Assembly (NCBI RefSeq): GCF_004962245.1
Contig: NZ_SUHQ01000023.1
Span: forward strand, 7,501-71,500
Source: Mesorhizobium sp.
GTDB lineage: Bacteria; Pseudomonadota; Alphaproteobacteria; Rhizobiales; Rhizobiaceae
Reading direction: 5' to 3'
DNA: 64,000 nt
The notes beneath the pieces were generated by a model that searched no databases, was not told the DNA's origin, and saw only the letters and a program-made list of their open reading frames with translations. Made by a program: the position numbers and the translations under genes. Shown here piece by piece: positions 15,848 through 20,642 of the stretch (positions are counted from its first letter, which is position 1; every line of letters starts with the position of its first letter).

Positions 15848-16597
15848 ATGCCAGAGCCCCGACGTTCGACGATCGATGCCGGAGAAGTGGAGCGCTTTTC
15901 TGCACTTGCCGCCGAATGGTGGAATCCGAACGGCAAGTTCCGCCCGCTGCACAAGTTCAATCCGATCCGGCTCGCCTATATACGCGATCAGGTGGCGGCG
16001 CGCTTCGGCCGCGACCCGCGTGCGGCGCGGCCGTTCGAGGGCCTGCGGTTCCTCGACATCGGCTGCGGCGGCGGGCTGTTGTGCGAGCCGATGGCGCGGC
16101 TTGGTGCCGAAGTGGTCGGCGCCGACGCATCCACCACCAACATCGAAGTGGCCAAGCTGCATGCGGCGGAGGTCGGCGTGACGGTGGATTACCGCGCGAC
16201 GACGGCGGAGGACCTGGCCGACACCGGCGAGAAATTCGACGTCATCCTCAACATGGAAGTGGTCGAGCATGTCGCCGACATCGACCTGTTCGTGGCCAAA
16301 TGCGGCGAGATGCTCAAGCCGGACGGCATCATGTTCGTCGCCACCATCAACCGCACGCTGAAGGCGCTGGGTCTGGCCATCATCGGCGCCGAATATGTGC
16401 TGCGCTGGTTGCCGCGCGGCACCCACCAGTTCGGCAAGCTGGTGCGGCCGGACGAGCTGGAAAAGGCGCTTGCCGGCGCTGGCCTGGTCATCATCGACCG
16501 CACCGGCGTCACCTACAACCCGCTCGCCGACCGCTGGCAGCGGTCGAAGGACATGGACGTCAACTATATGGTGCTGGCGGAGAAGGCACCCGTCTGA
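15848..16597 (+). CDS. ubiG: Bifunctional 2-polyprenyl-6-hydroxyphenol methylase/3-demethylubiquinol 3-O-methyltransferase
   Basis: [43 protein letters not shown]. Confidence 0.96.
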
Positions 16598-16617
16598 AAC
16601 AGCCACAGCGCACGCTC

Positions 16618-16763
16618 AGAGAGCGTTTCGAAACTCGCTCTGGCGAGTCATATGGTGGTGGTTTCGAGAACCGGAGCGCAGCGGACATTTGGGTCCGTGA
16701 GCACCGGAAGCGCAGAAAACGCCATCAGATGGCCGCCAGAGTAGAGTTTCCAAACGGTCTCTC
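16618..16763. repeat. Approx. 145-bp fold-back repeat family C, copy 1
   Basis: AGAGAGCGTTTCGAAACTC...TTTCGAGAACCGGAGCGCAGCGGACATTTGGGTCCGTGAGCACCGGAAGCGCAGAAA...GAGTTTCCAAACGGTCTCT. Confidence 0.85.
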
Positions 16764-17277
16764 AGGCGTCGAGCGGCCGATAGCCGCCGCGCCAGTAGAC
16801 GAGCGCCTGACCGGCATCGCAAGTCCGGACCGCCTCGACCGAACCGATGATGATCGAATGGGCGCCGCGATCGATCATCTCGTCGAGGCTGCAGTCGAAG
16901 GCGGCCACCGCATCCGAAAGCAGCGCGGCTCCGGTCTTCAGCGTCGTCCATTCGGCGCCTTCGTAACGATCCTTTCCCTTGATGCCGCCGAAACCCGAAA
17001 ACCGCTCCGCCACGCGCTGGTGCCGGGGGCCAAGCGAATTGACGCCGAAATGCCTGAAACGCTCGATCAGCGGCCAGGTCGACGAGGATCGGTTGACGCT
17101 GGCAATCACTTTCGGCGGTTCGGCCGACAGCAAAACGACCGAAATGACGACAAGACCGGAGCGATCCTCGCCAATGCCGGCCGTGATGACGCTGACATTG
17201 CCGACGATCAGCCGCATCGCTGCCCGAAAATCAGCTATGCTGACCGGAAGCTCCTCCGGAGACCTGGATTCAGTCAT
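16762..17277 (-). CDS. Flavin reductase family protein
   Basis: FRAAMRLIVGNVSVITAG...PPKVIASVNRSSSTWPLI...FGVNSL; 12 bp from the LLM oxygenase. Confidence 0.88.
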   Translation of the reverse strand: MTESRSPEELPVSIADFRAAMRLIVGNVSVITAGIGEDRSGLVVISVVLLSAEPPKVIASVNRSSSTWPLIERFRHFGVNSLGPRHQRVAERFSGFGGIKGKDRYEGAEWTTLKTGAALLSDAVAAFDCSLDEMIDRGAHSIIIGSVEAVRTCDAGQALVYWRGGYRPLDA

Positions 17278-17289
17278 GCTGGCCTCCTC

Positions 17290-18413
17290 CTAGGCGGCCG
17301 ACTGCATCGCCGCCGGCGCTATGCGGATCCCTCTCTGCTCGAGAATGGGCAGGACGGTGTCACGGAAATACGGGAACTCCTCGGCATAATCGACGAAGGA
17401 CAGCGTCGATCCTCGAAACCCGGCCTCATGCAGTGCCGTGATCCCATCGGCGACCTGTTCCGGCGTGCCGGTGAGCGGGAAGCCGCCATGGCCGGCCGCC
17501 ATGCGGTCGCGAATGAGCGCCAGCAGATCGTGCGGAAACGACTGCGCATGAGCAAATTGCAGCCGCACCAGATTGTCGACGGCCGCCCAGTCGGCATTGG
17601 TGCGGCCGAAATGCTCGAGATAGTCCTTCGCTTCCTTTTCCGTCGGCCGGCAGACGACATGCGCAAAGGTCAGCACGTCGACACTGCTGCCGGCCGCCAC
17701 GGCCTGTTCCTTCAATGCCGCGATCTCGTCCCTCGAGCGCGCGAGGTCGATTGCCGGCGTGAACAGGAAATCGGCGTTGCGGACGGCGAATTTGCGGCCT
17801 CTTCGGAACCCGCCGCGTTGAGGATCGGCAGCGGTGACGACGGGCGCGGATCGCCGAGAACATTCTTCAGCTTGAACCAGGTTCCGTCCCAGTCGAACGC
17901 TTCGGTTCGGCTCCACAACGCCCTCACGATGTCGAACCATTCCTGCGCATAGCCGTAGCGCGTGACATGATCGTCGGGCAGCGTCAGCCCAAGCGCTTCG
18001 TATTCGGGCTTGTTCCAACCGGCAACGATGTTGAGGCCGATACGGCCACGGCTGATCTGGTCGATGGTCGCCAGTTGCTTGGCAACGACGACCGGATGGT
18101 TTGCCGCCGTGTGGGTGGTGGCGAAAACCGTGATATTGCGGGTAAGCGCCAGCAGCCCGGCCGCCCAGGTGATCGTCTCCAGCACGTTGCCGTGGAAGTT
18201 GGTTTCCCCGCCATAGCCGATCCAGCGGGCGATCGGCAGCATGAAGTCGATGCCGGCCTCGTCGAGGAGGCGGGCGAGGCGCAGATTGTTGTCCCAGGAA
18301 CTGACCCAGCGCTCGGGAACCTTGGTGACGGTCATGCCGCCGGAGCAGTTGGACGCGAATGTGCCGAGAAAGAAGGGCTGCGCATTGGGCGCGGTCTTGT
18401 CGAGCATGCTCAC
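17290..18413 (-). pseudogene. LLM class flavin-dependent oxidoreductase, disrupted by a frameshift
   Basis: N-terminal part in ORF 17712..18413 and C-terminal part in ORF 17290..18594, different frames; join near 17794-17803; span is 1124 nt, one short of a multiple of 3. Confidence 0.88.
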
Positions 18414-18442: not shown

Positions 18443-18467
18443 TTTATGATAGAAAGTCTATCATAAA
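18443..18467. promoter_or_regulatory. Perfect 25-bp palindrome, putative regulator operator
   Basis: TTTATGATAGA-AAG-TCTATCATAAA between divergent LLM and winged-helix genes. Confidence 0.8.
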
Positions 18468-18523
18468 CTTTTGTAGACGCAATCGTTTGGATCGGCGCAT
18501 GCTGCGCGGCGAGGAACAGAGTG

Positions 18524-19120
18524 ATGAACGACCGGCGCAAACTTTCGGAGACGCAAGCGAAATTGCTGGATCGCGGCTGGCATCTCGCGCGCACGCCGCT
18601 CGAAATCGACGTGGCGGAAGTCGAGTACGCGCTGATGCGCTGCTACGAGGCGTTCGGCCACTGGCAGGCCGAGTGCCTTGCCACGGTGATCGAGTTTTCC
18701 GCCAGCGGGCCTGAGAACGCACTGCTCCACATCATCAGGATGAATGACCGGCCAAAGAGCGTCCGCGATCTGGCCCAGATGACCAATCGTGATGACATTC
18801 CCAACATCCAGTACAGTTTGCGCAAGCTGCTGAAGGGCGGCCTCGTCAAGCGCATGGGCAGCGGCAGGGCCGGTGTCACCTACGAAGTCACGCCGCTCGG
18901 TTATCGCGTCACCGAACGCTATGCCGATATCCGTTCTGTCCTGCTCATCGAAACCGTGATGCGCGTTCCGGACATGGCAAGCAAGCTCGAAGAAGCGGCG
19001 CGCACGCTCGAACTGATGACGGGCATTTACGAGCAGGCGGCCCGCGCCGCCGCCACCCACCGCCGTCGACACCCGCAGCCGGAACCTGGGGGCGATCAGA
19101 ACGACAGCGATATAGACTAA
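18524..19120 (+). CDS. Winged-helix (MarR-like) transcriptional regulator
   Basis: MNDRPKSVRDLAQMTNRDDIPNIQYSLRKLLKGGLVKRMGSGRAGVTYEVTPLGYRVTERYA. Confidence 0.82.
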   Translation: MNDRRKLSETQAKLLDRGWHLARTPLEIDVAEVEYALMRCYEAFGHWQAECLATVIEFSASGPENALLHIIRMNDRPKSVRDLAQMTNRDDIPNIQYSLRKLLKGGLVKRMGSGRAGVTYEVTPLGYRVTERYADIRSVLLIETVMRVPDMASKLEEAARTLELMTGIYEQAARAAATHRRRHPQPEPGGDQNDSDID

Positions 19121-19133
19121 AGGGCCTCTTGGG

Positions 19134-20048
19134 TCACGCCGCCTGGCTTTGCGCCTTTGTGGCGATCTGGCTTTGCGCTTTCGTGGTGATGAAGACGCCG
19201 GCGGTGATGATGACGGCACCCGCCCAGGTCAGCAATTGATAGTGCTCGCCGAGAAAGACCGTTCCGGCAAACAGCCCGACCGCAGCCGCGACATAGCCGA
19301 TCTGGCTGAGATAGACCGGGCCGCCGACTGCCTGCAGCCGGAAGAAGAAGGCGAACATCGCCGCGGCTGACGCGACCTGCCCGACGACCACCAGCGGCAC
19401 GCCGCCGAGCAGGGCGAACGAACCGCCGCCCTGCAGCGTGAGGATGCCGCAAAGAAGCAGCGCGGCCGATGCCAGGTGGCTGCCGACGGCAAGCTCGATC
19501 GGTCCGGTCCCTTCGGGCCAGTCGACCGTACGGTAGATGTTGCCGGCGGCAAGGCTGACCGGGATGAGCAGCCCTACCGCCACCCAGAAGAATTCGGCCG
19601 GCTGGCCGGCCTCACCGCGCGTCACCGCCACCATCACCGCGCCAGCGAAGCCAACGGCAATGCCGACGACGCCAAGCAGATTGGGGCGCCGGACGCCGAG
19701 CAGGATCGAAAATACCAGCGTGACCACCGGCGACAGCGTGAACATGATGCCGGTGTAGCCGGCGCCAAGATGCGGAATGGCCGAGAACATCAGGAGATTG
19801 GGGAAGGCGTAGGACACCGCCGCGGTGACGAAGAAATAGCGCAGCCTGTGCGGAGTGAGCCGGATGCGCTGCCCGCGCAGCAGCAAGGCGCAGAAAAGCA
19901 CGCCGCCGGCGCCGAGCGAGATGACGAGCGCCCAGACCATGGCGGAAACGCCGGCCACTGTCGCGATCTTGCCGAACGGCAGCGTCAGGCCGAGCAGGCC
20001 GCCTGTGACGACCAAAAGGCCGAGCGCCGAATCCCAGATTAATTTCAT
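19134..20048 (-). CDS. DMT family (EamA) transporter
   Basis: 304 aa, about 10 TM segments; TFLGEHYQLLTWAGAVIITAGV-like C-terminal EamA pattern. Confidence 0.87.
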   Translation of the reverse strand: MKLIWDSALGLLVVTGGLLGLTLPFGKIATVAGVSAMVWALVISLGAGGVLFCALLLRGQRIRLTPHRLRYFFVTAAVSYAFPNLLMFSAIPHLGAGYTGIMFTLSPVVTLVFSILLGVRRPNLLGVVGIAVGFAGAVMVAVTRGEAGQPAEFFWVAVGLLIPVSLAAGNIYRTVDWPEGTGPIELAVGSHLASAALLLCGILTLQGGGSFALLGGVPLVVVGQVASAAAMFAFFFRLQAVGGPVYLSQIGYVAAAVGLFAGTVFLGEHYQLLTWAGAVIITAGVFITTKAQSQIATKAQSQAA

Positions 20049-20150: not shown

Positions 20151-20642
20151 ATGGATCGCGCGGCGAAGGCCATCGAGCAGTGGAACAGGGAACGGCCGGA
20201 TCTGGATGTTTCTCCGATGGCCGTACTGGGACGGTTGAGCGAAGCCTCGTCGCTGATAGCACGAGAACGCCTCGCGCCGCTGTTTGCGCGTTTCGGACTG
20301 CAATCCGGGGAATTCGACGTGCTGGCGACGCTGCGCCGTTCGGGCGCCCCTTACGCGCTGACGCCGACGGCTCTCTATGAAGCGACGATGGTGACGTCGG
20401 GTGCTATGACCAACCGGCTCGACCGACTGGAAAAGTCAGGATTGATCATGCGCGGGCCGCATCCCAACGATCGGCGCGGCGTTGTCGTTCAGCTGACCGG
20501 CAAAGGTCTCGCATTGATCGAAGAAGCGCTGGCCGCTCACGTCGCCAACGAGCACGAAATACTCTCAGGCCTAACGCGCCAGGAGCAAGAGACCTTTGCT
20601 CACCTCCTTGAGAAATTGATAGGGAGCGTAAGCCAGGGGTGA
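20151..20642 (+). CDS. MarR family transcriptional regulator
   Basis: SGEFDVLATLRRSGAPYALTPTALYEATMVTSGAMTNRLDRLEKSGLIMRGPHPNDRRGVVVQLTGKG. Confidence 0.92.
   Translation: MDRAAKAIEQWNRERPDLDVSPMAVLGRLSEASSLIARERLAPLFARFGLQSGEFDVLATLRRSGAPYALTPTALYEATMVTSGAMTNRLDRLEKSGLIMRGPHPNDRRGVVVQLTGKGLALIEEALAAHVANEHEILSGLTRQEQETFAHLLEKLIGSVSQG

Follow-up and report, generated by a model that had tools for sequence, protein, structure and literature searches.

We report here that a gene for an LLM-class flavin-dependent monooxygenase from the soil rhizobium Mesorhizobium sp. is one base short of its orthologues, and that this break is most likely an early step in the ordinary, recurrent loss of the small gene module to which it belongs. 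The orthologues are intact, the gene shows no further decay and all stages of loss are found at the same site. The gene lies in a stretch of 64,000 nt (GCF_004962245.1, NZ_SUHQ01000023.1, positions 7,501-71,500 of the forward strand), henceforth called the window. Taken alone, the case is either a young pseudogene of the ordinary kind or an error in base calling. It is the comparative state of the site that we find mildly interesting: across about 150 species, this one chromosomal address is found intact, frameshifted, truncated, reduced to the reductase or empty, so that one can measure how fast, and in which order, a two-component oxygenase module decays.

Results

A missing base divides the oxygenase gene between two frames

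The broken gene and its parts are as follows.

17290..18413, minus strand: LLM-class (PF00296) flavin-dependent monooxygenase gene, minus one base (Pfam Bac_luciferase, orthologue alignment)
17712..18413, minus strand: ORF of the 5' frame with 205 authentic and 28 out-of-frame codons, then a stop (ORFs, translation)
17798..17799, minus strand: missing-base site, GG here and one base longer in the aligned orthologues (alignment with orthologues)
17290..17799, minus strand: 3' remainder of the gene, read in the -1 frame, conservation still full (translation, orthologue comparison)

The region measures 1124 nt, which is no multiple of three, and reads from a GTG codon (18413) through ...ILNAAGSEE before it runs out of frame and into a stop at 17712 (233-aa ORF); the 3' frame resumes at GRKFAVRNADF... 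and stays open to its own stop at 17290. Both frames combined yield 374 residues, and the span, the strand, the two minus-strand frames and the clean join of the halves are all as the initial annotation of this DNA had described them. The combined protein matches Bac_luciferase (PF00296) over residues 17-334 with 196.9 bits against a gathering threshold of 27.9 and is hence a member of the LLM class. The further claim of an apparent 1-nt deletion is borne out by a DNA alignment with orthologues from 29 other oxygenase-positive genomes of the genus: all 29 are intact and one base longer in the G run at about 17798-17799, a frame-changing difference of the kind that defines a frameshift pseudogene. 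Moreover, the same frame switch was recovered blindly by a codon-usage HMM. A second orthologue set takes in the 80 loci that come closest among named GTDB genomes, possibly with some overlap in species with the 29; it spans Mesorhizobium, Aminobacter, Rhizobium, Kaistia, Stappia, Variovorax, Haliea and others at 73-97% amino-acid identity, and matches in a single frame at 80 of 80 loci. Because the orthologues in both sets are intact, the two-frame layout is private to the window's genome (G000).

These comparisons bear on a programmed -1 ribosomal frameshift, raised earlier as an alternative, which would yield full-length enzyme from the two-frame gene. While the halves are offset by -1 and meet exactly, the layout recurs in none of about 110 orthologues, the join (GAA GAG GCC GCA) lacks a slippery heptamer of the form X XXY YYZ, and downstream of it the RNA is less structured than its shuffles (z +2.8). 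Intact orthologues, a missing heptamer and weak downstream structure together refute programmed frameshifting, whose probability we put close to nil. We rate a functional split, in which the halves would be made separately and then assemble, as no more probable: the 3' frame is open, to be sure, but it has no start codon near the join, the last 28 residues of the 5' product are unrelated, and a split is seen in no orthologue.

Apart from the missing base, the gene looks well kept. Compared with 27 orthologues, it has a dN/dS of 0.055 ahead of the break and 0.063 beyond it, both near the lower limit of what intact genes show, and among 251 columns invariant in the other orthologues (106 of them after the break) not one is altered in the window. 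An old pseudogene is ruled out, as there is no decay beyond the one base. With a single base missing and both halves otherwise undecayed, the break, to judge from these alignments, is either very recent or confined to the assembly.

The module is lost repeatedly at one site

Six neighbouring features define the module and its site.

15848..16597, plus strand: ubiG, left boundary of the module site (NCBIfam UbiG 300.6 bits, above cut-off)
16762..17277, minus strand: flavin reductase (PF01613), intact, 12 nt downstream of the oxygenase (Pfam 112.7 bits, low dN/dS)
18443..18467, no strand: 25-bp palindrome TTTATGATAGA-N3-TCTATCATAAA in the promoter interval (conservation, genome scan)
18521..19120, plus strand: winged-helix (HTH_27) regulator, divergent, intact (profile match, open frame, genus distribution)
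19134..20048, minus strand: EamA-family transporter, right boundary of the module site (profile match, site comparison)
20151..20642, plus strand: MarR-family regulator, right boundary of the module site (profile match, site comparison)

Oxygenase, divergent regulator and flavin reductase thus form a module at one site that extends from ubiG to eamA/marR. The palindrome, about 30 nt ahead of the oxygenase start codon, is conserved in Mesorhizobium, has variants in other genera and, with up to 3 mismatches allowed, is unique in the genome. It is probably the operator of the divergent regulator, which, given a single-copy operator, would be a local regulator. A separate palindromic repeat of about 150 nt occupies the intergenic interval between the convergent reductase and ubiG (16605-16762; fold -70.6 kcal/mol, z -5.6); it has 23 matches in G000, dozens in relatives and none in Rfam.

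Across a comparison set of 147 genomes of the genus (G000 counted in), oxygenase and regulator occur in 31, the window's included, and never apart, the oxygenase being full length with 83-100% DNA identity. The regulator is absent from all 116 oxygenase-less genomes, two of which hold fragments of it. A reductase sits at the site in 31 of 31 oxygenase-positive genomes, as expected of an LLM oxygenase with a separate flavin reductase encoded beside it, and persists nearly full length without oxygenase and regulator in 19 others; several genomes hold remnants, and the majority have nothing. The oxygenase is intact, then, in about 30 related species and absent or in pieces at the same site in others. 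That reductase and regulator are intact, as first annotated, is true in the window; what was missed is the repeated loss of the module at this site, the lack of any intact regulator where there is no oxygenase, and the frequent survival of the reductase after the oxygenase has gone.

For 23 of the genomes without oxygenase we went through the interval from ubiG to eamA. Six hold an intact reductase alone, and three of these (G018, G007, G086) retain the last 40-58 oxygenase codons; three others contain scraps (G023, G076, G015), with a 2-nt frameshift in the G023 reductase; the remaining 14 are clean. The site is also empty in G075, a closed single-contig genome that is closest to the window on the ubiG tree and has a 97% identical ubiG. 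This tree has at least 18 changes in oxygenase presence or absence and does not by itself separate gain from loss, but the oxygenase remnants that persist at the site (G018, G007, G086, G023, G015) do point to loss. In a closed, one-contig genome (G118; L027) it is the reductase that a one-base insertion frameshifts (928-1415), with oxygenase and regulator intact. Given repeated module loss at the site, the window's frameshift fits as another instance. Plasmid records with oxygenase orthologues come without annotation.

Real mutation or assembly error

The initial annotation left recent pseudogenisation and assembly error side by side. These were the right two options, although the module context was missed, and the comparison with relatives speaks for a real loss of very recent date; in our judgement the base is probably truly missing in the organism. 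Were it an assembly or sequencing error, the organism's gene would be intact and encode an ordinary working two-component monooxygenase. Such an error would agree with a lone base lost in a G run, with the lack of further decay and with normal purifying constraint on both halves; it would also agree with the source being a draft (122 contigs, 6.9 Mb, contigs of 200-850 bases among these) that has other single-G deletions and more internal frame switches than closed genomes.

The last two points stem from a survey with a codon-usage HMM permitting frame switches, which covered 1.14 of the assembly's 6.9 Mb and flagged 16 internal switches as opposed to 1 in 0.6 Mb of closed genus genomes; several of the draft's 16 are mobile genes or overlaps. 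We rejected the idea that most flagged switches are errors, as they turned out to be 4-nt gene overlaps or IS/phage genes. Flags besides the oxygenase fell on a UvrD-like helicase, an FMN-dependent hydroxyacid oxidase, a groEL paralogue and several mobile or short items, as well as on a thiolase and an ABC ATPase, both on contig C47. The helicase gene (contig C32, ~124390, L178) has a 16-nt frameshifting deletion relative to 8 aligned relatives, which is no homopolymer miscall, and the hydroxyacid oxidase gene (contig C47, 4329-5515, L159) has lost one base, with G in place of GG, by comparison with its closest relative. From the 16-nt deletion together with the single-G deletions it follows that G000 has real broken genes plus further single-G deletions that may be errors. 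Several indels, not just one, set apart the groEL copy, a divergent paralogue; the thiolase gene, located at a contig end (contig C47, 1-700, L159), has apparently several frame changes, due to low contig-end quality or decay. A four-genome frameshift comparison over 120 kb was noisy owing to start-site differences, and, with the exception of the oxygenase gene, its hits resembled start-site or shadow-ORF differences.

Against an error at the oxygenase speak a G run that is just three long and lies within a 124-kb contig, the 16-nt deletion elsewhere in G000 that no homopolymer artefact explains, and module loss that is common in the genus, nearest relative included. On balance we consider an error unlikely, if far from negligible, and proceed with a real mutation.

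Discussion

Our proposal is that loss of one base from the short G run would throw translation out of frame at codon 206 and into a stop 28 codons on. The resulting 233-aa product would lack the last ~170 residues of the barrel and is presumably inactive, so that the window's allele is probably a very young loss-of-function form of a two-component LLM flavin monooxygenase, caught at a stage when reductase, divergent regulator and palindromic operator are still intact. Later on, oxygenase and regulator would be lost together and the reductase would last longer, until finally an empty ubiG-eamA site is left. Accessory catabolic genes of bacteria are known to undergo pseudogenisation in steps and loss in parallel, likewise with frameshifted, remnant and empty-site stages at a single locus; different here is that the oxygenase-regulator pair goes as a unit, whereas the reductase often stays under constraint.

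Six orphan reductases contain no stop codon and have dN/dS values of 0.07-0.09, no different from reductases that retain their oxygenase (mean 0.079), and between the members of two similar orphan pairs (G008/G009, G018/G007) dN/dS is near 0.1. Though drawn from few branches, these values suggest that the reductase may serve other oxygenases after the loss of its neighbour. Since the regulator-oxygenase pair is repeatedly discarded while the reductase remains under undiminished purifying selection, we tentatively raise the option, without giving it the better chance, that the reductase is no dedicated partner and has been drafted to feed reduced flavin to other oxygenases, which would fix the module's order of death.

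As for the enzyme itself, its best NCBIfam match is the dimethylsulfone monooxygenase SfnG (TIGR04021; full length, 173.9 bits). Both are of the two-component FMNH2 type (PF00296), but the score is far under the curated equivalog cut-off (382.95 bits), and SfnG identity was rejected. The nearest solved structure by sequence is that of the pyrimidine monooxygenase RutA (TIGR03612; PDB 6sgg, 5wan; E ~1e-40, residues 17-362) and, like in the RutA system, the partner is a RutF-like PF01613 reductase. RutA identity was rejected as well, with 158.7 bits for the oxygenase against an equivalog cut-off of 498.3; there is no rut operon around and the window's reductase reaches 102 bits on RutF, where the cut-off is 255. 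By these profile scores the oxygenase appears to belong to an uncurated subfamily between SfnG and RutA, which points to an unnamed, widely conserved group with its own regulator and probable operator. A literature search for the oxygenase cluster and its pathway found no paper.

Gene neighbourhoods lead us to infer that the oxygenase, using reduced flavin supplied by the reductase, may take part in breaking down an aromatic compound, one that possibly contains nitrogen, via a CoA thioester. In 15 of 64 more distant loci it adjoins a relative of the bifunctional salicylyl-CoA 5-hydroxylase/oxidoreductase, and the one relative tested scores 1357 bits on NF006101 (cut-off 1078). Often these loci add a StyA-like epoxidase, a short-chain dehydrogenase, and thioesterase/RidA/cupin genes or an enoyl-CoA hydratase. 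A conserved cluster at loci L061-L084, hosted by Rhizobium, Kaistia and Agrobacterium, combines StyA-like epoxidase, the LLM oxygenase described here, flavin reductase, a salicylyl-CoA 5-hydroxylase/OYE fusion, SDR, thioesterase, RidA and cupin.
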